Of a stretch of 64,000 bases of DNA, positions 8,312 through 61,700 are shown piece by piece. Below the pieces are notes generated by a model. That model had not been told where the DNA came from, searched no databases, and was given only the letters and a program-made list of their open reading frames with translations. Within the stretch, counting starts at the first letter, position 1; each line of letters starts with the position of its first letter. The position numbers and the translations under genes are program-made. Origin of the DNA: Acholoe squamosa (Eukaryota; Annelida; Polychaeta; Phyllodocida; Polynoidae); assembly GCA_949317995.1 (NCBI GenBank), contig OX439035.1, positions 83,763,959 through 83,827,958 on the forward strand, in the 5' to 3' direction.

Positions 8312-8315
<4 letters not shown>

Positions 8316-8536
8316 GGGGAACATGATTTCTCGTGCCCGGATGGCTGACCCGCAGGGGCGGGTCACCGTGTAGTCACATGTTCCTTATCGGTATCACACC
8401 GATCCAGGCGTAGGTGGAAGGTAGAGAACGTCAGGTCAGGGGAAGTAGCTCAGAGGAAGAGCTTCCGCTTCGAAGTTGGAGGGTCCCGGGGTTCGAGTCC
8501 CGGTTTCTCCAAAGACGTTTTCTGCCGACCTCTACA
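8312..8536 (+). repeat. Left terminal direct repeat (LTR-like) of element copy 1
   Basis: Begins TGTAGGGG and ends CCTCTACA. It contains the tRNA-like sequence at 8439-8510 followed within about 10 bases by a T-run. About 97% identical by eye to 8758-8981. Confidence 0.8.
8439..8510 (+). tRNA. tRNA-like sequence inside the terminal repeat (probable pseudo-tRNA or Pol III promoter)
   Basis: A 72-nt cloverleaf-like sequence. The acceptor strands GGGGAAG and TTTCTCC pair with two G-T wobbles. The D arm GCTC..GAGC overlaps an A box (TAGCTCAGAGG). The T arm CCGGG/CCCGG encloses TTCGAGT, and the B box GGTTCGAGTCC is a perfect match to consensus. The anticodon stem is imperfect, with loop TTCGAAG, so the anticodon is ambiguous (CGA or TCG). 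One extra G in the T stem distinguishes it from the other three copies. TTTT follows at about +7. Confidence 0.5.
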
Positions 8537-8757
8537 CTAATGGAGAAACCGTATAGTCCTGACCTGCGCGACGGGGGGGCTACGGAACTCGGTCCCTGGG
8601 TTGGTGTGATACGGCAAGCGCTTTGACCGCCCGGTACTTGTACCGGCATTTGACCAGGGAATCGGGAATGCCTCGCACTGCTTGATAAAGCCCAATCGTC
8701 TGGTTGGGAGGAGAGCCGGGTTGCTGGTCAGCGGTGGTCGAAGCTGGTTGGGGGCTG

Positions 8758-8977
8758 TGTAGGGGAACATGATTTCCCGTGCCCGGATGGCCGACCCGCA
8801 GGGGCGGGTCACCGTGTAGTCACATGTTCCTTATCGGTATTACACCGATCCAGGCGTAGGTGGAAGGTAGAGAACGTCAGGTCAGGGGAAGTAGCTGAGA
8901 GGAAGAGCTTCCGCTTCGAAGTTGGAGGGTCCCGGGTTCGAGTCCCGGTTTCTCCAAAGACGTTTTCCGCCGACCTC

Positions 8978-8981
<4 letters not shown>
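8758..8981 (+). repeat. Right terminal direct repeat (LTR-like) of element copy 1
   Basis: Same ends and order as 8312-8536. It contains the tRNA-like sequence at 8885-8955 and abuts the resumed (TA)n tract at 8982. Confidence 0.8.
8885..8955 (+). tRNA. tRNA-like sequence inside the right terminal repeat
   Basis: A 71-nt counterpart of 8439-8510 with the regular T stem (CCGGG/CCCGG). One substitution in the D stem (GCTC to GCTG) weakens the arm, which argues against a functional tRNA here. Followed by TTTT. Confidence 0.45.
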
Positions 8982-32600: not shown

Positions 32601-35600
32601 AAAATATCAGGAAAAACTTCCCATTCCTGCAATGAAATGCAACACTGAAACTGAAGCATCTAGAATGTTGCTCATAACAGATCTAAGACAATGATGATCT
32701 TACCTCTTTTTCCAGCTGCTTCTTTATCTGCATGGCCTCTGTCTCGGAGAGCTTTAGCGCGTGGCGCAGTGCTAGCAGCTGTTCCCGGAGGAGGATGATC
32801 TTCTCCTTGGACACCATCTCCATCTCGATCAGCTGCTTCTTAGCGCGATCTGCCGCTCTGGTTAGATCAGCCACCTAGGTATATCACAAAGAGTAAGATT
32901 TGTTTCTTTTAAGTTCTACTTTTATGCATCACTTAACTAGGCATGTTCAAGTCGAACTTGTCTTTCTACCCACAAGGCACAACAAACTCAGAAATGTCTA
33001 CCAATGTGAGCACCTCAATTAAAATATCCAAGACAACTATTCAATTAAATTATAAACGACCAATGTTAACTGACCTCTTTGGCACCCTTTATAACGTGAT
33101 GTGTTTGTTTCCAGCTCCCCATAACCTTCATTTTGGTCATGAGTACAGAAAGTTGATGGTTGTCTGTGCGCATCGCATGCATGTCCTTTGAGTGTTTGGC
33201 CAGCCGTGTTGACTCATCATCATCTGAAAATGATGGGATGAAGCTATTTGATAATCTGAATAGACACTTCGCAAGTTTATTTACTTATTCATAATAATTA
33301 ACAATCTTATTAAGATTGTGTCAGGTGCCATTATCCAATGAAATTCAGTTCATACTTTGCATACATGTACATGTAACAAAGAAAATCTGGGTGCCTTTTT
33401 TGGTCGCAAACATAAAAATCGATGACTACCATTTGGTGACCCAGACTTCTGCTGCACTTTGTCCATTTCTGCTGTAGCCTTACTCCTCGTGGCTTCAATC
33501 TTATTCATGACATCCATGTGGAGATTTTCCCTAAAAGTGGACAAAAAGTTAAACAAATGATTTTTAAACAAGATTCCTGTTAAATTAACAATTATTTTCT
33601 TCAGTAAACGAAAGATCTTTGTAGAGGTCGGCGGAAAACGTCTTTGGAGAAACCGGGACTCGAACCCGGGACCCTCCAACTTCGAAGCGGAAGCTCTTCC
33701 TCTGAGCTACTTCCCCGTCTGACATTCTCTACCTTCCACCTACATCTGGATCGGTATAATACACAAGGGGGGCAGCTTATACCAGCTGACCAGCCCCTGA
33801 GGGCTGGTGCAACCGGAACGGGGCAGATGGCCTACCGCCATGGACTTACAGCCAGAGCTGGCCCCTACACTCCTCCCAACCAGCTTCAACCATGGCCAAC
33901 CAGCACCAAGCATTCCTCCCAACCAGATCGATTGGGCTTTATCAAGCAGTGTGAGGCACTCCTGACTTCCCAGTTGACCTACCAGTACACAGTACTGCCA
34001 GGGTCGAAGCGTATCTGTATTATACCGTTCCAGGCACCTACACCTGGATTGGTATGACACACACGTAGGGGGGGAGCTACCACCGGATGCCAGCCCCTGG
34101 GGGCTGGGATCTCCAGAAACGGGGCTGCTGGCCTTACGGCAGAGCTGGCCCCTACACCAGTGTAGAGGTCGGCGGAAAACGTCTTTGGAGAAACCGGGAC
34201 TCGAACCCGGGACCCTCCAACTTCGAAGCGGAAGCTCTTCCTCTGAGCTACTTCCCCGTCTGACATTCTCTACCTTCCACCTACATCTGGATCGGTATAA
34301 TACACAAGGGGGGCAGCTTATACCAGCTGACCAGCCCCTGAGGGCTGGTGCAACCGGAACGGGGCAGATGGCCTACCGCCATGGACTTACAGCCAGAGCT
34401 GGCCCCTACATCTTTATATCAAAGGTAGATACATTTCAGTTTTATGGGAATCTTGATTTAAGAAATTAAAGCAAGCTAAAAGCGCCTTATAGGATTGGCC
34501 CAAAGTTAGGCACTAAAATCAGGTTATGTCTTATATACATGTCACCTTCTAAGCGAGATGCTGTGGTGCTTTAAGACTTTTGAAAGATCTATACAGATTT
34601 TCACACCTCACTAAAATCCGCACAATTCTAAATTTACTACGACAATCTATAAAGGCTCACCTGTGTACATCAAACCGCTTTTTCAGGTCAAAAGTGCAAT
34701 TGAATAGGTTATGGATGAGTCCATGGTACTCATCACTAATTTTACTCCGCAGGTCCTGTTCCTGACATAGCGCCTTTTCGCGCATCTCGGCTATCTTAGC
34801 ACGAAGGGCAGTGATCTCCAACAGAAGGTCCTGGGAGTGGTCGGCCAGCTGGCACTGCACCTCCACCTCTACATTTAGCTTAGCCGCCGCCACCTGGTCC
34901 TTCAGCTGCTTGATCTCCTTCAGATTGTAACATAGGACTTTTTATCTAAATACTTGTATTGAAGTAACTTGAAGGTATGTATGTTTCTATGGGAATCCAT
35001 GACCGCTGGTCACATAGAGGTTCCCCATCTCCTATATTTGATTTTATTACCTCTTCCCCTGATATTGATGCTTGATAATACACAATATGAAATTATAAAA
35101 TGACAGATTACAAAATCCCTTGGACAGAACGTGTGTTCTTTAAATTCTTCTCCCGTTAACAATGAACTGATAATAGGTGCAAATTCAACACAAGGCACTA
35201 TACACGAAAAAGAATTTCTATTAAAGATATTTCACGTGTAAGACGTGCACTGTGGATTGGGTGTGTGTGAGATTGTCTTTGATCAAAGCTTATGGCACAA
35301 AAAGGTCTTATTTTGCATGTCCTGATAAGAACTGTGTAAAATTGGATATAGATAGTATGTTTGTTGTGTATAGATGCTGAATAGAAAGATTTAACGTGTG
35401 ATATATATCACATATGGCCCAGGGTCTACTACCCCCCCCCCAATATAAAAATTGGGCGTTGTGCATTGAAGCACAGAAGGCTCAGGGTAGATACCATAAA
35501 ACCCTCTATCAACCCTGTAGGGTCACAGGAATCAGCACTTGCGAAATATTGACTAATTACTTACAAATAGAGACTATTATCTATACATGTACTGACACCA

Positions 35601-37709
35601 GTCTGGCATAATCTTCTCTTACTAAACCCCTTGGACCGCTGGCCCCCCGGACACCTGGCCCCCGGACACCTGGCCCCCGGACACCTGGCCCCCTGGACAC
35701 TTGGCCCCCAGACACTTGGCCCCGGACACCTGGCCCCCTGGAGACCTAGCCCCTGGACACCTGGTCCCCTGGAAACCTGGCCCCCTGGACACCTAGCCCC
35801 ACCAGAAAACTTTATCCTTAGCATGCTTAGTTTATTGCTCAGTCCCCAATGTGTTATGTGTATAACTTGGACACTGTAAACATTGCCTGCTGAAAAAAAG
35901 TGTCTCACTTGGTGATTACCCATAGGACTCCATGTGCTAATTTCATCGCCAAAATCTATCTGACCCATAGACCCAATGGTTAAAGAACTTGTAGTCAGTA
36001 TAGCTCCCAAAAACATGACGTAAGTACAGCAGCTTTTTTCATAGAGAAAGACATCACTCACCATAAAGGACAAAATGTTGTCTGATAGATGAGATTTGAA
36101 ACTTTCCTTTGGCTTTTGAAAAATGTGTAAACTAACAGTATATCACTGAATGATTACACCCTAAAGTTGGTGATTACAAATTTGTGAATCTGACTGAAAA
36201 CCCGGCTCCAATAGCCCAGGGGATACCCTGGGCCAACAAGATATTCGGGTGGAAACAATTATGACAATGCAGACAGAGGACAGAGAAATGACTTGAATGA
36301 AATAGAAGAAGTTTTCCAGATTTAAAATGCTAAGATTTGTTTATAGATTCGCTTGCAAAAAGATTCCATCCAAATACATGCACTGCTTATATGACAAAGA
36401 ATCCAAAGTTGGAGAAAATGTCAAATTTCAAAACATCTTACCATTTATCTACTCCCTGGTTAATGAAATTCCAGAAATATTAGGAACTCTAATTCGTATG
36501 GACTAGTGGCACTTTCAATGAAATATATGAAATACCGTAATCTCCCACGTATAAGGCGCAGCTCACGTATAAGGCACCCCCCCAACTCACAGGGGGGCTG
36601 TTTTGCATAGAAGGCGCCCCCCTGAGGGCATATTTTTGTCAGTTTAGTACTGTTCTATAGTAAAAATACCCCCCTATAAGGCGCACCCCAAACTCAAGGC
36701 AATTTACCTCCCACATATAAGACCCAGCAGCATTTTGTTTGGCCTATAAGACGCGCTTTATACGCGGGAGATTACTGTAGTGACATTTTACTTTAAAACC
36801 ACTATTTTTATATTCCTTTCACAATTTCAGCACTATTATATCTAAGTCAGTACACTAATGTTAACGGAATTGGGAATTTTACTCCGACTTGAAGGCATCT
36901 TTCACATCCGCGTTGATTTACAATTGAAGAAAATTGAATATAATCCTTTTTGATAATGGCTGTGACCTACCTGTTGTCGACTGTACAGCAGTTGGTGGTG
37001 GGTCCGAAGATGGTTTTCGTAATACATGCTGTAGCTGTAACCAATGAAAATTAAAAGTTCTTTGTAATTTCAAAGTACATACTTGCATCTTAAACTGAAT
37101 TTTAAATCAAAAATATCTATCACTAGTGTGATGACTGTTTTTTTGTTGTTTTACAGCTCGGCCACTTCATTTTTAAAATTTTACGTGAAGTCACTTTTCA
37201 TGAATAATATCTCTATACTAACCTTTCATAATTTTGTTTTTCACGCGCCATGACATCAGAGGCAAGGCTAGATAGGCAGGAGTTAAGGTGTTGCCGGGGG
37301 AGGGTGACTGTGTCATTGGTAACTGTGGCATCTGACATAAGTTTGTTAATGAAATCATCGGCGATGTGCGGCTTGTTGATGGTGAAGCTCTCCTTGATGC
37401 TCTGAAAATTGGTCAAATTAGATTTTATCTTACTATTTATGTAATTGTATTCTATATGGTTGTTATATTTGTTGATATGATTTAAATTACCCATTATTTC
37501 TAAATCAGAGACAAGATTATGACAAAAGCTAGAAGAGTTAAGTCTACATCACACACACAAAAGATTTTTACCGGTCGTTTCCACAGGTCAGTAGGTAAGG
37601 CAGATTCCTCACGTGCCCGCTCTGTTAACACCAGGTTGAGCTCCCGAGCAATCTTCTTACGGATTTCCATCAACATGTGGCACTCGAGGGCCTCGAGGAT
37701 TTTCACCAA
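26654..37709 (-). CDS. Large coiled-coil gene, part 4 (C-terminal, 16 exons)
   Basis: Exons: 37572-37709, 37223-37401, 36971-37034, 34661-34917, 33430-33530, 33075-33223, 32704-32874, 32040-32135, 31731-31919, 31223-31283, 30727-30783, 29355-29515, 28798-28872, 28196-28243, 27922-27975 and 26654-26779. The exons from 34661 to 31731 encode long heptad-rich coiled coil (for example DLLLEITALRAKIAEMREKA and LLREQLLALRHALKLSE). Then come a basic Pro/Ser-rich tail and a final helical exon ending KEKVF before TAA. The three small exons 28798-28872, 28196-28243 and 27922-27975 are all phase 0 and could be alternative. The exon at 28196 could instead read through to a TAG at 28184 and be terminal. 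Confidence 0.75.
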
Positions 37710-40700
37710 CTGTAACCAAACAAAGTGACTGATAAAAGTAAACTCTAATTCTTCTTCAAATAATATATATAAACATATTCATACATGGAAATATCATATG
37801 ACTGAAGAACTGATATACATACATGGTTATAGCCCAGAGTTTCGGCATAGTACATTGTATTATAAGAGGGCTTCACTCTAAAGGGGCTTCCCTAGCCCAC
37901 TTAGAAGGGTCTATATCTCCTCTTTACTATCCCCTCAGGATGTGTGTGGTGCACATATGCGCGGGCACTGACACATTCCTGTTAGTGTGGAAGCCATTTT
38001 GTGGAGGATAATTTGGGCATTTACTTCTTCAAATGAAAGGATTAATCAAGAAACACTTCTTCCATTTGGATTCTCTGACTCCTCGTGGCCCACGCTGCAG
38101 GACCGGAAGTACTACTTTATTAAGTTGTCTCCAGTTAAAACAACAATGCTAGTTTACTTCTCTCACCACAGAGGGCGGCACAGTAGCGCTGTTCCCGCGC
38201 TCATTTACCGAGGATCGTGGGTTTACACTCTAACACCCCCACTTAAACTTACGATCGATACATTACTTATGTATACAACTTTGAATAACATATATCAGAT
38301 ATGATCAATACAATATTTATGATAACACATCAGGTTATCAATACATGATGATTTAGATTTATGTACCCATTAGTACACTCAGGAACTTCACAAGCCTGGG
38401 TTTTGCAACCGGCTTTGTGAAAACATTGGCAATATTTTCTGCTGTGGGTACATACTCTAGCTTGAGAGAATTATTCTGCACTTCATTTCTCACAAAATGA
38501 TATCTGATATCAATATGCTTAGACCTTTGATGATGTACAGGATTTTTAGCTAGTGCCAATGCACCTTGGTTGTCCCCATACAAAACAACACTCTCTGTTT
38601 GTTTAATACCAGTCATGTCGGTAAAAAGTTGATTAAGGAACTTTACCTCTTGGGTAGCAGCTGACAGAGCCATATATTCAGCTTCACAAGTGGAAAGTGC
38701 AACTGTCTGTTGCTTTCTACTTTTGTACGAAATGAGTGGACCATTGTTGGTCAACCTGAATGCATAACCAGTTATGCTCTTTCTGTCATCAGATGCACCC
38801 CAATCGGCATCACAAAAGCCACTGAGTTCTAACTCAGCATCAGATTTCTGAAATCTTAGTCCATAATCAAGTGTACCTCTGATATACCGTAGTACCTGCT
38901 TGGCTCTACCAAGATCAGCTTTGGTGGGATTCACCATATGTTGAGATAGTTTTGTTACAACATAACACAGATCAGGTCTTGTGATTGACATACAATAGAT
39001 GAGGCTTCCCACTATTTCTCGATACTGCTTAGCGTCAGCTAGCTCTTCGGAATCCTCATCCTTTGTAGTATTGGACCCTACATCACAAGGAGTCGATCTG
39101 GGTTTACAATCTTCCATTTTGAACCTTTTCAACAACTTCTCGACATATTTGGTTTGGTTCATTTCAATAGATCCATCTTCACATTTGAACTCAATACCTA
39201 GGAACCATGATAACTTACCAAGATCCTTCATTTTGAATCTGGTGGACAGAGACTGTTTGACTGTGTTGAGTGTCTTCTCATCGCTTGCTGCAATTATAAT
39301 ATCATCAACCCAAACTACAACAACAGTCTTGGAATTTTGTTCAAATTTAGTATATACACATGAATCAGTCTCAGACTGTTGGAAACCTTCCTCCTCAAGG
39401 TAAGTGTCCAACATGTTGTTCCAGTTCCTACCACTTTGCTTTAAACCATACAGAGATTTATTAAGCTTGCAATACAATTTCTCACCATTTTTACCTTTCA
39501 CCTCATAGCCTTCTGGTTGTTCGATATAGAGTTCACAGTCTATCGGCGCATTCAGATAGGCTGTCTTAACATCCATCTGGTGAACAACCATGTCCTCTTG
39601 GACGGCCAACTGCATAAGCATGCGAATCGATGTGATACGGGCAGTGGGTGAAAAAGTCTCATGATAGTCAATATTTGGGACCTGAGAATATCCTTTGGCA
39701 ACAAACCGTGCCTTGTACTGTTCATCAGCTTTTTGTCCCATTTTCATTGCATACACCCATCTACCCCCCACTGCAGATCTACCCTCAGGTAGTGTGGTGA
39801 GTTCAAAAGTATCATTGTCAATTAACGCATCCATTTCTACATCCATGGCGTTCTGCCATTTTTGCGCATTGTCCGAGTTCATAGCATCGTTATATGAGTT
39901 CGGGATGTGTGACATACGATAACAATAGTCCACAGTGGTGGTTACATAGTCCTGCAAATAGCCAGGCGGGTTACGTCCTCTGCGGGGATACCTAGCATTG
40001 TCCCTATTACCCTGCAGGTTTAGATCGGGTTCACCACCAACCCCATTCTGAGGAGCATCATCAGCTACATCCGGAGCTGGGTAAAGTTCAGGTTCTACCT
40101 GCGGTGTGGTATACACCGGTTCATCACAACTGTCTGTTACCTCCTCAAACTTATCAAAGAACTTCACACATCTTACTCTACGCACAATGTTACGCTCGGG
40201 AATATACACAAGATATGCTGGGCTACACTTATCATAACCTACAAAGATACCCTTCTCGCCGCGATCATCCAGCTTCTTCTTTTCCTGTACATAGGCATAA
40301 CACACAGTACCGAATACATGCATACCGCTCAAGTCTGGTTTCTTACCTGTGAGCGCTTCGAATGGTGTCATATTGACCCTGTCATTGAAACATCTGTTTC
40401 TGATGTATACACTACACATAACAGCATAAGTCCACATTTCTTTAGGTAATTTGGCTTCTAATAACAGACATCTTGCCATATCAAATATTGTGCGCCACGA
40501 TCTTTCTACTGTACCATTTTGGTGAGGTGAATAGGGAGCTGTTTTCTCATGTTTAATCTGATTTTTGACCAACAGAGCTTCGAAACTTGCACTAGTAAAT
40601 TCACCCCCATTGTCTGAACGAATACACTTCACCTTACCATATGGTGCACAATCAGCAAGGAACTTCTCTGTAGCTGTTACGGTGTCGCTCTTCTGCTTCA

Positions 40701-43700
40701 GAAAATAAACCATGTTTACCCCTGAATAGTCATCTACAAAAGATAAGGCATACCTGAAACCGTCTCTTGCTGTAGGATCAATTGGGCCTGCGAGATCACA
40801 GTAAACAACATCAAGTGGGGCCTCTGCCCGTTTATCTGGATCATGATTTCTGAACTGCGACATTTTACCTTTTACACAGGTATCACAATCAAAACTGTTC
40901 TTATCGCTGATTTTCATACCATCAACTACTGACTCGAGTTTCATGCAATCTCTTACATTACAGTGACCAAGAATTTTATGCCACTCTTCCACTGGGTGGG
41001 ATCGAACACTAGATTTACTAGTTTTGTTGAGAAAATATAATCTACCATATTTCTCTATTTCAAAGCGAGTACCATCTGGCGCATTTAATTCAGCTGAGTC
41101 GGGACTGAATTTAACACTGGCGCCTTTTTCAGTTGCCGCTTGCACTGAAAATATATCCTGCTTATAGGATGGGACATAGAGGGCATTCTCTAAAAGAATG
41201 TTGTGTGGCCTACCTGTACTGTCCTGAATTTGTACACTGGCTGTACCTCTACCTGCCACAACACCGTTTGTACGGCTGCCATCCGCCAACTCTATGTAGT
41301 GTTTCTCTGGAACAAAACTTTCATCAAATTTGACAAATTTGGATTTTTCGGTAACAATATGAGTAGTTGCACCACAATCAACCAATAAACTATACAGGCT
41401 AGTTGTATTACAAACATCCGCATAATCAACGCTAACCTTGAACGCAAATGCATGACCCGGTTTCGAACTATCGTCGCTGGCTACTTTAGCCGAGTCCTTC
41501 TTCCTACACTGATTTGTATAGTGAGTTTTGGTTTTGCAGTTATTGCACCACTTGTTACCCTGCTTTTTATTTTTACACTCAAAAGATCTGTGTCCTGGTT
41601 TTCCGCAAGCATAACATGTATAACTCGGTTTGCTGGGGTTGTCACTCCTCCCGGCATCGGACACAGTTTTCATCACATTCTCCTGTCTCGAGTTTAACTC
41701 AGCGTCACTCGACCGGCACTTTTCCGTCTCCTCAAAATTTCTAAGTGCCACTTTAAAGTCACTGAACCTATGGTCATCCTTTTGGGTGGTAACAGTTCCA
41801 AAAGTATTATATTCAGCTGGAAGACCTTTCAGAACCATAGCAACAAGTAAACTGTCACTCACTTCTTCCCCTGCTTCTTTCAGCGCATTTGAAGCGGTCT
41901 CCGCACGGATGACGTAGTCGGTGATACACTCATCAGTACCTTTTCTCAATGATGTCAGTTCAGTGTAAAGGGAAATAACCCTGGGCTTACTTTTGCTTTT
42001 GTAATGGTCTCTGAGAATTTTAAGAGCCTGTCTGCCATCATCCTTAGCATCTCTCATGATAAGGGATAAGCTCCTATCATCCAAATACTGTACAATTTCT
42101 GCATATGCCTCTGCCTTCTTATCTGCAGCTGCAATACCATTCCCAGCAATTGTATCCAGTAACTTCATTTGCCTCATGTGGCCTAAAAATCTACATTCCC
42201 AGAGTTCATACTTGCCCTCATCTCCATCAAACATCAACCTGTGTCTGGGCCCATGACCTGTTAGTGTGGAAGCCATTTTGTGGAGGATAATTTGGGCATT
42301 TACTTCTTCAAATGAAAGGATTAATCAAGAAACACTTCTTCCATTTGGATTCTCTGACTCCTCGTGGCCCACGCTGCAGGACCGGAAGTACTACTTTATT
42401 AAGTTGTCTCCAGTTAAAACAACAATGCTAGTTTACTTCTCTCACCACAGAGGGCGGCACAGTAGCGCTGTTCCCGCGCTCATTTACCGAGGATCGTGGG
42501 TTTACACTCTAACAATTCCTCTGTGAAATTGTGTAATGTAGTTCTCACCATGAATTTGACCTTAGCTGTCGAAATGGCGTTAAACATCTATTACTCACTC
42601 ACTCACTCTCACTCTAAAATATTTTTTCACTAGTGTTTAGCTAACACTGAAGATTCAGTTTGGGGAATAGATTTTGATCCAGAATATAGCGAGGGATGAG
42701 GTACTTAAAGCAGGGCCTACCTGTCTCATTTTGATTTCTGTTTCTGAAGCACCCTTTGGTACGACGAGTGGCTCATCGTCAGACACCATGCCCTCGTAAA
42801 GTTCACCCTGCCCATAGCGCCGAGCAACACTGGACAGGACTGGGAACAGCACCTCTTTTTTGTACTCTTTACTGAAATAACAGAGTAGCTTTGATAAACA
42901 TCAGCTGGATTATATGAGATAATTTCTTTTGTCATAACAAGAAGAAATGGTATATTTTATTTTACCTATGTTCAAAAGAGTGTTTAAAGAGTGCAGTCCC
43001 ATTTACCAGAACGCTTTGTAAAGGTTGGTCGTATCGATGGCTGGGACCTGTAGCCGATGACAACCCCAGTTGATTTTGAGGATCTCTAAGCGTTTCCACA
43101 ACAACAGGAATCCCTTGAGTAACTTGTAAGCTTCTATGGGCCGCTCTGTGCGAGACAGGGGCTTCTTTCCACCTGTTTCATATATAGAACATAAGGAAAA
43201 TTGAAAACTTGGAGATGTATTTCTATATATACTGCAACGTCTGTACGTATGTGTATCAACGCCTTACCCGACATTACATTATAAATCATCTTCCTTGCTT
43301 GGTACATTTTATATCACACATATTAATGAGTAAGTGCTAACTTTTTGAGCACCAGTGTTACTAAATATGTTGATAACTGATTTATGTTCTGTATTAGTTT
43401 ACACAATACAAACAAGTGTTAACATGTATAACTCAGAAGAAGCAGATAAGCTAACCTCTGTCCCTCCTGCCATAGTCTAGTGAGCTGGGGGGCCTAGATG
43501 ATGGGGCACGGCTAAGCTGTGAGGATGGGCGTACAGAAGATGCCGCATCTCCGGTCGTACTTTCAGCACCATCTTCCATAACTACTGCCCTGTCGTGTTG
43601 TCCCATTGTGAGCACGTCCTCCATGAGCAGGGACACACCCAGTATTTCACCATTAGCAACATGCCTACAAACATTAAATGTCCCTAGTATAAGACGTTTA

Positions 43701-55700: not shown

Positions 55701-58700
55701 TTTTCCTGCGAGCAGACATGTTTCTTGCCATAGCTGAGGCAGTGCGAAGATCCCGATCTTTGGCCAGGTAGAAGCTACCGACAAGTATTAGGTCCTTTTC
55801 CAGATTCCTAAAACAGATAAAAATACATGTACATTGGATGAAAAAGGTATGTCTTTATGGGCACCATATTATTTCTGTGGTTTTTGGCAATGCCCCCTGC
55901 AACAACACTCTTTTTTGTACATTTTAACTGCTGTATTAGTGTAATACAACGCATATAAGCACCCCCCCCCCCACATATAAAGCGCACCACGAGTTCAGAT
56001 TCTGTAATGCGCAACAAGGTGATATAAGGTAGGGCAAACCTGTGTCTAAGGCAAACACTAAATTTGTTGCCTCAGTGCAGCACGAGTGTATCTGCAATCA
56101 GCATTTTTCAATTTTGTAGGAGAGGCAAAAGAAGTGTTCTTATCAATTTAGTACATAGTGGACACAATTTTATTGCACTGGGCCCTGTGGGCACACATAA
56201 AATAGACAGAGTTTCAATACTTTCATAGTAGGTAGACAAGGGTCAATAGATGTTAAAACTGAAGAAAACTCAACTTTGCCAAAATGTCAGTTACAACCTT
56301 ATTGCACTGGGCCCTGTGGGCACACATAAAATAGACAGAGTTTCAATACTTTCATAGTTGGTAGACGAGGGTCAATAGATGTTAAAACTGAAGAAAACTC
56401 AACTTTGCCAAAATGTCAGTTACAACCTTGTTGCACTGAGGCGACGAATTGAGTTTGATAGAAACCTATCAGGTGTAGCTGACACCTGATTCTGCCAACT
56501 TTAGTAATACCTTGAGTGTATATTGTATATCATGCCTCCAAAGCACGCCCTGACTTTAGTGAGGTTCCATAAAGCAGAGTTTCACATATAAACTAAATAT
56601 ATAATAGGTAGTCCACTTCTACAGCATCTATTGCGCCAAGATGAAAAGACAATCATACCTGAGATCTTCTAAAGCAGAGTCATACATGACGTAGTAACCT
56701 CGCTGGTCCTGCACGTGAACGCGACCCTCGTCCAGGACATAAAAGTCGTCATGGTTCTCGATGTCAGTGAACTCCATGAACTCGGATTCAGCAATCCTGT
56801 GTCACATAAAAGAATCAAAGAATATGTGAAAGCAAAAGCTTTTACTGTCTTTCAGACCTAGGCAATCAAACACAGATTTTAGCTTCTTTTATTCTCCCTC
56901 TTCCTTAAGTCACAGTAGAAGAAATCATCAGTGTATACCCCCTTATTACAAAAACATTAATCAAGTTTGATATATAAATTTTTGTTCATTGAGAAACTGA
57001 TAACATAGAATATGTACTTACTTGTAGTCCTTGGGTGTGTTATGGATATACTGGTGGGAGCCAAGTGCACCACCTGTTCCCATGCTTCCATCTCCTACAG
57101 TTTTTCGGTGGTTTTGTGAACTGTTTAAGAACAATAACCAACAATACTTTCACACAATTTCCCAGCTTAGGTATATGCATATCACCAAATAGCCTTACTC
57201 CTATTAAAATATCTCCAAGTGCGCAAGAGACACAAAAAAAAGTTAAATTGACCTATCCTACATGGTATCTGGTGTGTACGCAGATTCATTTCACTGAACA
57301 GGAACCCTTCATACTGCAACTGTAGACTAGACATATACCAGTAGAAAGTAATGCCTTCTTTACCTTGATGGACTAACTTTTCCCGATTCATGTGATAGAC
57401 CTCCATCGTTTATTGTCAGGGTTCGCTCTACGGAACGGAAATAGTTTTGGATACTCAAAGTCTGTATAAAAAAAAGAAGGTACATATCAATTCTCTCCTT
57501 TTTCATTCAACACAAACATCTAGAAGTGCTAGGAATGCCAGTTGAATTTGGATAAATGCGCACTTTTTAATTGATTATACAGATTCTCTATAGTTATCAA
57601 TATTGCTTCTTCACATATTTTATGTTGATCCCATATAACTGAAATATGTGGATAATATTGCTTTAGCAAAGAGAAATGCGATACATACTGTTCTCTGAAG
57701 ATCCCGAATTCGCAAGTGCCTGAGCTGCAGGAACGACAGGTACGCACCTTGCAATGATGCAGGGTCATCATTATCAGTGCCGCCTTCATCCAGACCTACA
57801 AAGACAACACAAAGATGATTAATGTAATACCCATACACTTTCCTATAGTCTGTGCTTTGTACGAAAGTTATTGATATACAAGAAATTATTGTATTCCCAT
57901 CTTCCAACACAACTGCACCTATCCATTTCAGTCCATGCATCATCAATGAGCCTCAGGTTGTACGTGAATCTGAGCTTACTGCGCCTTAAAGAACCTTCAA
58001 AAAGAGGGGATGCACCTTATTGGTGGGGTAAAGCTACATTAAACTAGTATTAAAGTGGGGATGATTGGCAAGGCGTGATTAAAAAGACTAGTAATTTCTT
58101 AGACTTGGCCTGCCTATATGTTCACATACAGCCAGGTCGCCAGCTAATGCAGCATACACCTAAAGCCATTTTCTTCTTTCACTGCAAGTATTTTGAATAG
58201 CCAGACTTACCTAGGAGTTGAACTGTGTTAACGTAATCGTAACTGTCCTTACGTTTTCTCGCACTCTGTGCTCGTGATTTAGTAAGGTTTACATTTTCTA
58301 CATCTTTCTCATCAAAGTCAAAATCTCCCATGATCATGTCATCATCTTCATTGGATCTGAAATGGATAAAGAAACATCTTTAATAATATGCATCAGTGAA
58401 CGTACATACTCGAAATACCGTAATCTCCCGCGTGGAAGGCGCGTCTTCTACGCCAAACAAAATGCTGCTGGGTCTTATACGCGGGAGGGTAATTGCCTTG
58501 AGTTGGGGGTGCGCCTTATACGCGGGTTTTTCCAACATCTCCGATGACAGCTTGAACTCATAGCGCCAGCAGCACGGCAGACCAGTACGTGTCAACGCGC
58601 TCGGCGGGTTCAAGGAGATGACAGCATCAACTCATAGAGCCTGCAGCCCGGTCGGTGTACAGGCGCTCGGCGGGCATTACGCCGACCGTGTGCCGATGAC

Positions 58701-61700
58701 AGCTTGAACTCATAGCGCCAGCAGACCGGCAGACCGGGAGGTGTCGACGGGTGCTCGGCGGCTTCAAGCCGACCGTGCGCCGATGACAGCATCGACTCAT
58801 AGAGCCCTCACTGCGGCAGCCCGGTCGGTGTACGCCCACCATGCGCCGATGACAGCTTGAACTCATAGCGCCAGCACCGCGGCAGACCGGGAGGTGTCGA
58901 CGGGCGCTCGGCGGCTTCAAGCCGACCGTGTGCCGATGACAGCTTGAACTCATAGAGCCCTCACCGCGGCAGACCGGGAGGTGTACAATAGTGGGGGGGG
59001 TGGGGAGGGGGGCGCCTTCTATGCGAAACAGCCCCCCTGTGAGTTGGGGGGGCGCCTTATACGCAGGTTTTTCCAGAAATCGATCCAGAAGAGGTATGTG
59101 CGCCTTCTACGTGAAAAGGCATTCTCTGAGTTGGGGGGGTGCCTTCTACGCGAGCTGCGCCTTCTACGCGGGAGATTACGGTAGCTCATTCAAAAATAAT
59201 CCCAGAATTAAATTAAACTATTGAACATTTTTAATGTACTAATAAATGTATTAGACATCCCAGAGATAGGGGTAGTCTAATGCGCTGAGGCGTCCTGAGG
59301 CTTAGGAAATTCCCTGGAGAAAATACACTGCAACTATGGTCAATACCCAAAGGGCCCATGACATCATCAAGTAAAACTCCAGGCAAAAATTATAACTCAC
59401 TTGGCGTGAAGTTCTGGGTTGGTATAGATCTTCTTCCAGATCTGAGTTGTGTGGTAACTTGTACGGTTGGATGTGACGCGGACAGGGTTCACAGTGGGTG
59501 GGTCACGTACCATGACCGCATGGTCCCTCAGAGCATCCTGTACCCGCTGTTTAAAAAAAAGTTAGTATAAAGCTAAATCATAGACATGTACTTTGTAAGC
59601 TCAACTGAAATGAAACAACCTTCATGTAAGACTATAGAAGACAGTTATGGGGAAGCTTACCTCAGCATCAACGACATGTAGAAATTTGGCCTGTACCCTA
59701 AGAAGTTCATCTATGTCGTCTCGGGAACGCAACTCGACCATTTTACGCTCCTGTGATGGATCATAGTGTGGTCGTAGACGTATAAAGGGTAACCAGTTGG
59801 ACTCCTGCTTCAATGCATGCATCGAGTGGTCTGCGCCCCAGTTCTCCTGGCCGACCTGACAGAGGTAGAGTTATGTTTAGATACAAGACACACAGTGATA
59901 TTAGATTTACCAGCGGTTCACAAGTTTAGCACTATTCATAGGGGAACATTTAAACTGATGTTTTAGGCTGTGTATTGGAATGTCTTAAGATATGAAATTA
60001 TTTACAGCAATGTGTATCTCAACATGTCTATGAAGACAAACAGACCAGTAACTTTAGGACCTTCTAATAGACATTTTCACACACAGAATAAAGCTTGGTA
60101 CTAGACAGGCCATATCCTTCATCCAAGGTTTGAAGCAAGAATCCTAGAGTACGAACACGAACAAGAACATTCAATACATAAACAAGCATTCTATTCTACG
60201 CGATAGCAAAGGCAGTGCATGTGACAAGCAATTTATCAACCGTTTGTGCCAGATGATTTTTTTCTCTTCATTTCATTACAATCATCCCTGTGACTTGCGG
60301 TATCATCCTCATTTCAGATATGGCTACTTCTGATTTATGAAGAGTGATCATAGTTGTGCTTGAATTTGTAATTCCAAAATGGAGTACTATACTACTGTGT
60401 TATATTTAGAATTTAGAATATGTGGAACTACAGGTAGTGACAATATTTACTGTGTCTTAAATTTATAAAAGAAAAAAAAAGTATTTCAGATATTGTGACT
60501 GTGTGTGCACTTTGGATTAGTTTATATGTTTTCCAGATCACTTCTGATATTGGATGACCATGAGAAGAGTGGTACCAGAGGTCAGAACGTGCATCTAAGC
60601 TACTCCTATAAAAACTGAACAGTACGAAGATGGCAAAGACTACTCTGCACAATCTAACTTACCTTCTACAATCATTGCGAGCAAAGCAGAGACAAAATGC
60701 AGGTTATTTCTATCATTCAATCCCATTTTGTATGCCTTTTATGAGTGAAATTATTGATAATCTGAAGTTTCTGAGTCTTATATTTCTTTAACATATATAT
60801 TGAATATCATGTTCTCTAAGCAGAACGCTAAGCTCTAAGTAAATACATCTCCATTTCGCACTGACCTAGGTCTTAATCTATTGTCTTTCTATTGAAATGG
60901 CCAACCCTTGATTCTTTTTCAAGCTATTTTTCTTGGCGTGCTAAATGTAAGCTTCAGTTGGAGAAAGGAGACGTTTGTATCAATATATGATTTTTGATCA
61001 ATATAGTTAAAATCATTCTTGTGATTTATCATGAAAGTAAAAAAATAGGGACATTTCTTACCTCAATTCTATCATATGTTTTGAATGTTTTCAGATGCTC
61101 CTGTCGTGTGTACATTTGTCTGAACTTGCGATTGACGGCCGCATATAGCTCCATCTCATCTGCTGATGTGTGAAGTGTTTCCACATTCTGAGTAGACAAG
61201 AGTCGTTTTCAAAATAAGGGACAGAAATTTTGCGATTTCACTTTTTTTTCAGACTCAATTATCAAATCATAAATCGTGTACAAACTGATAAAGTTGGCTT
61301 TACAAGTTAGCTATACACACCATGTTGATGCCGTACAGGTGAGCAAAGAAGTTGAGTAGTGGTCTCAAGTTTTCCATGTCATTTCGGTGAAGAGGCAGTG
61401 AAAGGTTTTCCTCATCTGATGCAATACCACCACCTGAAGAAATTCAAGTAAAAACAGTCTTATTGAACTCGAAGTTATAAGATTTACAAACATACCGAGA
61501 GACAATGCTCACTGACGGAATAATCATCAAATTCAGTATACTAATGAAAAATGGCTAACCACATATAAATTCCACTTCATCAAACAGGTGAATAATTCCT
61601 ATGACTTTGTGCGATAGATGCATGAGATTATGTGCTACAATTTAAGCTTTACCTGCAGCAGCTGCGGCATAGCTGAGTTGGTTGGCTGATGCTGGGTTGG

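Follow-up and report, generated by a model that had tools for sequence, protein, structure and literature searches.

In the window, that is, the whole 64,000-nucleotide stretch of Acholoe squamosa DNA that was analyzed, I found that a gene-less LTR element carries a primer-binding site (PBS) matching the 3′ end of the tRNA-like unit in its own LTRs. By its structure the element is a Helenus-type TRIM, as judged from the descriptions of the published Helenus families. From the sequence it is quite likely that this Pol III-promoter TRIM supplies its own CCA-tailed, tRNA-like primer for reverse transcription. The class has already been published. What appears to be new is the match of the PBS to the element's own unit, and with it a putative self-supplied primer which contradicts the published conclusion.

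Two copies in the window

The element at 8312-8981 (plus strand, as are all its features) is 670 bp in length. Its 5′ LTR of 225 nt (8312-8536, with TG..CA ends) and its 3′ LTR of 224 nt (8758-8981) are 97.3% identical, begin with TGTAGGGG, terminate with CCTCTACA and enclose an interior of 221 bp. An earlier note on this DNA had described such paired repeats with TG..CA ends, a non-coding interior, and in each repeat a tRNA-like unit with a downstream TTTT; all of this was confirmed. Both units were found by ARAGORN and by the Rfam tRNA model, at 8439-8511 (43.2 bits) and at 8885-8956 (45.2 bits), above the gathering cut-off of 29 bits. The unit at 8439-8511 has the A and B boxes, the anticodon CGA, and a T stem with a 1-nt insertion. 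The TTTT sequences, candidate Pol III terminators, lie at 8518-8521 in the 5′ LTR and at 8963-8966 in the 3′ LTR. A candidate polypurine tract, GGTTGGGGGCTG, identified by eye, adjoins the 3′ LTR (8746-8757). The target duplication of this copy is illegible because the insertion lies within a (TA)n run.

A second copy of the same kind, absent from the earlier note, was found on the minus strand at 33620-34410 (791 bp). Its 5′ LTR (34161-34410) and 3′ LTR (33620-33869), each of 250 nt, are identical, and their tRNA-like units at 34186-34257 (50.1 bits) and 33645-33716 were likewise found by ARAGORN and the Rfam model. The interior (33870-34160) consists of a PBS remnant, CTGG (34160-34157), a tRNA-less U3-like unit starting from 34156, and the interior proper. 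A candidate polypurine tract, GGGAGGAG, precedes the 3′ LTR (by eye). The copy is flanked by the 4-bp target duplication AAGA, at 34411-34414 on the upstream side and at 33616-33619 on the downstream side. It is a deletion derivative of a longer family form, of which L056 (992 bp) is a member. The idea that its PBS is a wobble-paired variant was dropped; most relatives carry the full PBS. The stop-to-stop frames overlapping the two window copies reach up to 147 and 210 amino acids, and none of five such frames has a Pfam match at an E-value of 0.01.

Some other features of the window were noted. The second copy lies between exon-like stretches of a coiled-coil gene in the same orientation (33140-34950, minus strand, by eye) and is probably intronic. 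A Copia-type LTR retrotransposon at 37980-42514 (minus strand) carries a single long gag-pol-like frame without stops at 38359-42324 (by eye). Its two LTRs, each about 256 nt, are identical, and it has duplicated the 5 bp ATTCC; it is a very recent insertion. Stop-free frames of short repeated peptide motifs at 58627-59106 and 35561-36142 (minus strand, by eye) are probably minisatellites.

Copies in the host genome

The host genome (1.48 Gb) was searched, and at least 41 matches to the 670-bp element were found (40 of 2686 first-pass candidates were scored). The 40 matches outside the window were covered by 39 fetched stretches. Both ends are present in 30 of these, 29 with TG..CA and one (L015) starting with AG. 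The duplication count omitted the other nine stretches, retained L015, and counted L046 and L047, which have common flanks, separately. Exact 4-bp duplications flank 18 of the 30 copies; nine others have one mismatch and three have two or more. None of these 30 copies has a duplication extending to 5 bp. For the family of the second copy, 33 loci were fetched and the tandem loci L085-L087 were excluded. In the remaining 30 loci, exact 4-bp duplications were found in 25 and identical LTR pairs in 14; this family is young. The shifted control gave 0/30 in each of both sets. In a viral contig collection and a genome contig collection, exact patterns yielded no copies.

Thus, the genome copies are LTR retroelement insertions rather than SINEs, because they have the 4-bp duplications, the LTR pairs, and the PBS. 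Single units and tandem arrays are also present among the sampled copies. L085 and L087 are tandem Helenus arrays, the latter with ten LTR-end motifs and only three tRNA-like ends. The earlier note had considered that copies occurring mostly as single or tandem units, without pairs and duplications, would indicate a SINE; paired copies with duplications are common in the sample. A tRNA-SINE (SINE2) is a single dispersed unit without an LTR pair. That a tRNA-SINE or a tandem tRNA array merely mimics paired repeats here is extremely improbable. Arrays do occur (L085, L087, and L128), and units without a PBS behind them were found in one fetch (see below), but the TG..CA ends, the LTR-interior-LTR structure, the PBS, and the duplications with their empty controls all contradict it.

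Relation to known elements

Helenus is a TRIM class with a tRNA-like sequence in the LTRs, known from six animal phyla; its animal members have 4-bp target duplications, and its sizes range from 311 to 1263 bp (Kojima 2024, PMC10886601). The 670-bp element, the second copy, and the 992-bp L056 fall within this range. They share with Helenus the gene-less TRIM structure, one A/B-box tRNA-like unit per LTR (all four units in the window exceed the Rfam gathering score), the 4-bp duplications (18/30 and 25/30 exact), and a PBS at +1 with a polypurine tract, GGGAGGAG or a similar purine-rich sequence being present in both window copies. Tandem arrays are also shared, e.g., with the zebrafish LTR-11_DR (PMC10886601). 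Transcription by Pol III, a feature of Helenus and TRIMp3, is predicted here from the A and B boxes and the TTTT.

The earlier note likened the element to Cassandra, with a Pol III promoter derived from tRNA, and did not take it for a SINE, which stands; its statement that no described family fits does not, given Helenus. The plant element Cassandra is also a TRIM whose LTRs contain a small-RNA unit for Pol III, and its transcript spans from the 5′ LTR unit to the 3′ LTR unit (PMC10886601). In contrast, the Cassandra unit is 5S rRNA, while Rfam at the gathering threshold yields only tRNA in the window. I know of no 5S unit acting as a primer. The biv-TRIMs of bivalve molluscs are LTR elements that likewise lack genes and occur in solo and tandem forms (Satovic 2019, PMC6934838). 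A canonical PBS was not identified in them, and their terminal repeats, compared by description, differ in having no reported tRNA unit.

In Helenus, according to Kojima, the tRNA-like sequence of the LTR is not complementary to the PBS, and host tRNAs were concluded to be the primers (PMC10886601). This non-complementarity is not part of the definition of the class, and it is contradicted here: the PBS matches, and covaries with, the 3′ end of the element's own tRNA-like unit. The earlier note, too, took the unit as a promoter only, missing its match to the PBS and hence its possible role as a primer.

Match between the PBS and the tRNA-like unit

The PBS starts one base past the LTR and reads TGG and then, in reverse complement, the 11 nt at the 3′ end of the unit. 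The partner of this TGG is CCA, a sequence not encoded in the LTR, where the unit is followed by AAGACG, TGACAT, GAGACG, or similar. The CCA complement is thus unexplained by LTR DNA and points to a processed, CCA-tailed RNA. In the 8312 copy, the PBS TAATGGAGAAACCG (8538-8551) forms 12 of 14 Watson-Crick pairs with the unit end CGGTTTCTCCA (8501-8511) plus CCA. This pairing is unique on the plus strand, and one minus-strand position ties with it. Both mismatches lie in the CCA complement, a double change absent from the 39 stretches. The relatives in subfamily A mostly have TGGTGGAGAAACCG, which is perfectly complementary to CGGTTTCTCCA plus CCA. Among the 39 older stretches, the pairing with the own 5′ unit is 14/14 in 18 and at least 13/14 in 33, and in the young family 26 of the 30 loci have a 14/14 match with their own unit plus CCA. 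In the 8312 copy, CCTGACCTG also pairs with the leader on the 5′ side of the unit; this was dismissed, since most relatives have CCTGACCCG and the type B leader differs.

Could the PBS region be a remnant of inverted LTR DNA, left by snap-back or rearrangement, with a non-functional complementarity? Three places in the interior of the 8312 copy do match its LTR in reverse complement, and their order is inverted. However, such a remnant would read CTTTGGAG... and not TGGTGGAG..., and the PBS is not an inverted LTR copy because it starts with the complement of a CCA that the LTRs do not encode. Moreover, the TGG keeps a constant 1-nt offset across subfamilies, and both this helix and the U3-interior helix described below show compensatory differences between subfamilies. 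This explanation was rejected owing to the CCA complement, and I consider it very improbable.

Five covarying types (A, B, D, E, and F) were found, whose unit ends CGGTTTCTCCA, CGGTTTCCCTA, CGGTGTCTCCA, CGGTGTTTCCA, and CGGTATCTCCA go with matching PBSs; in subfamily B, for instance, CGGTTTCCCTA goes with the PBS TGGTAGGGAAACCG. It was predicted beforehand that the PBS of a new locus would match its own unit. Eight loci (seven distinct) were fetched after a pattern search for paired units; six of the seven have a unit without a PBS behind it, and in L110 (the same element as L111), the only new locus with a PBS, the prediction held, with the unit end CGGTGTCTCCA and the PBS TGGTGGAGACACCG. Seventeen further paired loci were chosen where two listed pattern matches lay near each other. 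In fourteen of them, the PBS pairs at 13-14/14 with the unit of the same locus. Two more fit when inspected by eye, namely L117, whose unit was not parsed, and L125, which has one inserted base; the remaining locus, L130, does not fit. In a type with the PBS TGGTGGAGATACC, all seven loci fetched have units that end with TATCTCCA or, where decayed, with TATCTGCA/TATCTGGA; five of these loci are from a single array, and one was read by eye.

When the loci were pooled, using the best-preserved unit per locus, 96 of the 101 classified loci were concordant, and 22 of 123 were unclassified; many of the fetched loci had been selected by a PBS or tRNA pattern. L001-L008, L085-L087, and L109-L116 were left out of this count, as were eight loci, including all seven F-type loci, that were counted separately only. 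L031, L040, and L047 (common flanks, or no PBS where one was expected) are outside both the pooled count and the extraction of loci for alignment, and L017 and L039 are outside the extraction. The five discordant loci are L096, L130, L141, L142, and L143 (at a site different from the one with a truncated unit that was examined separately), and the unclassified L145 has a mismatch. Since such loci exist, recombination or priming by the tRNA-like RNA of another family occurs. The types differ at four diagnostic positions of the acceptor strand (67, 69, 70, and 72), and loci within a type share ancestry. The number of independent co-changes is therefore about five and not 96. In an alignment of 46 of the 64 extracted loci (43 distinct rows, which share ancestry), pairing was found in 94.2% of the cells against 38-59% in the slid control, and cells changed on both sides numbered 10 against 2.0 in shuffles. 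Neither the pairs changed on both sides (2 vs 1.5) nor the further pair types (6 vs 6.6) exceeded the shuffles in this alignment.

The unit end and the PBS are separated by just 23-27 nt in the 64 extracted loci. Thus, it is conceivable that no separate RNA is involved and that the genomic RNA primes itself in cis, its 5′ tRNA-like region folding back onto the PBS and being cleaved after position 73. Tf1 is primed in a comparable way by the 5′ end of its own mRNA, unlike the tRNA-like, CCA-tailed RNA that is proposed here. Self-priming by an element-derived primer is named for Tf1/sushi-type elements in Satovic (2019, PMC6934838). The PBS, however, contains the CCA complement, while the genomic RNA has no CCA, so that a 3′-processed, CCA-tailed primer is needed. 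A variant in which the 5′ fragment is cleaved and then CCA-tailed would satisfy this. On balance, priming in cis seems rather improbable.

Comparison with host tRNAs

The main alternative to a self-supplied primer is that a host tRNA, most likely tRNA-Ala, primes what would be an ordinary Helenus TRIM. The tRNA-like unit would then be only a Pol III promoter, and its likeness to the primer would come from the descent of both from tRNA-Ala. The published assignment of host tRNAs as Helenus primers (PMC10886601) favors this, as does the tRNA-Ala-like character of the unit. In L110, the units (1501-1571 and 1959-2029) score 68.5 bits with the anticodon TGC, against 68.4 for a host tRNA-Ala gene, and an annotation could take the unit for a genuine gene of this kind. 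A single mismatch separates the type A, D, and F ends from a host tRNA-Ala end, so that their PBSs pair at 13/14 with a host isoacceptor.

The ten host tRNA-Ala genes that were read end with CGGGTTCTCCA, CGGCATCTCCA, or CGGCGTCTCCA, which predict the PBSs TGGTGGAGAACCCG, TGGTGGAGATGCCG, and TGGTGGAGACGCCG. Behind the LTR end CTACA + N, these were found genome-wide at 4, 0, and 0 sites. A degenerate self-type pattern for A and B was matched at 1707 sites, against 5 for its control; among the 100 listed, 83 are exactly A, 11 are B, and six are others (by eye). Twenty A/B-pattern sites were fetched, and a second LTR lies downstream in 16 but not in four; one of these four, L105, is not Helenus. 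A self-type pattern for D, E, and F was matched at 383 sites, against 0 for its control. In HIV/SIV, the primer can serve as the template for the progeny PBS, which so records the primer used (PMC4549124). The near absence of exact host-type PBSs is thus hard to reconcile with a host primer, which would be expected to rewrite the PBS. Furthermore, Watson-Crick pairing with the host Ala ends read does not exceed 11 of 14 for type B and 12 of 14 for type E, and the changes of the PBS track the element's own unit. The B-type end in T-arm context has 282 sites, and all of the 100 listed have a Helenus-type trailer, a few of them decayed (by eye). The A-type end has 2602 sites, and the 100 listed all start a Helenus-type trailer, which is truncated in one of them, C1:4941448 (by eye). 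These two surveys would miss a host tRNA with another T stem. Taken together, a host tRNA primer is unlikely, and I favor the element's own tRNA-like RNA. No autonomous partner with the same PBS was identified in a search covering LTR ends other than ACA, in which CA + N + the A-type PBS, not preceded by A, occurs at 14 sites.

The anticodons of the units vary, being CGA in type A (8439-8511), GAA in type B (L042), and GCA in type E (L120), and the acceptor disagrees with them. The type A unit has G3-U70, which is an alanine identity element. Separately, a large tandem array of the host tRNA-Ala(AGC) type was seen at G000:C12 ~51.451-51.477 Mb, with a spacing of mainly ~290 and 390 bp; one member (L163) was read.

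A helix between U3 and the interior

Eighteen bases of U3 (8837-8854 in the 3′ LTR; 8391-8408 in the 5′ LTR, placed from the 3′ LTR copy) are complementary to an interior segment about 58 nt past the LTR (8595-8612). In the two window copies alone the evidence is weak, as shuffles equal the helix score in 16 and 10 of 500 cases. In 35 type A and B loci, with L038 additionally left out, 15-18 of the 18 positions form Watson-Crick or wobble pairs. In the young family, 15-16 of 18 do so in the 30 loci, when the segment nearest the 3′ LTR, placed by its likeness to the window copy, is taken. Several pairs differ on both sides between subfamilies (by eye). In Ty1, the CYC5-CYC3 helix downstream of the PBS cyclizes the RNA; there, too, a segment just past the PBS pairs with the 3′ end region of the RNA (PMC4974528). 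By analogy, the U3-interior helix may serve RNA cyclization; the likeness is one of description, and the function here, in contrast to Ty1, is suggested by the between-subfamily changes only.

Discussion

LTR elements are known to start reverse transcription with a borrowed host tRNA or with the end of their own mRNA. To my knowledge, as far as a literature search mostly outside subscription journals reaches, no LTR element encoding a tRNA primer has been described. In the elements analyzed here, Pol III would initiate at the LTR tRNA-like unit. Most transcripts would end at the nearby TTTT, giving a short RNA that would be trimmed and CCA-tailed in the manner of a tRNA, while some would continue past it as far as the 3′ LTR TTTT and serve as the genomic RNA, with the repeated tRNA-like region as its R region. 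The short RNA would anneal to the PBS and prime reverse transcription, the U3-interior helix may join the RNA ends, and an autonomous LTR element would supply the reverse transcriptase and integrase. From comparison of the subfamilies, it is likely that the promoter, the R region, and the primer are one LTR-encoded, CCA-tailed tRNA-like gene which co-evolves with the PBS, freed from the host tRNA sequence, and that each subfamily keeps its own primer-PBS pair.

The middle LTR-like unit of the young family lacks the tRNA-like part (L056, L063, L069, and L088 were examined); its absence is expected if a Pol III unit in the middle of the element would disrupt the genomic RNA. A partial loss of the PBS, with a break in or beside the TGG, was seen in the window copy at 33620, L069, and L071, and would fit faulty strand transfer at that point. 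The minimum-energy fold of the isolated unit is not a cloverleaf, and folding of the predicted transcripts gave no decisive structure.

If confirmed by RNA, this would be a new way for an LTR element to start reverse transcription, and Kojima's question of priming by the element's own unit, which had been answered no, would become a yes. It could explain why the LTRs retain a complete tRNA fold beyond the promoter boxes. The family would also provide a natural system in which the co-evolution of primer and PBS is readable from many copies, and some predicted tRNA genes in such genomes would be transposon primers.
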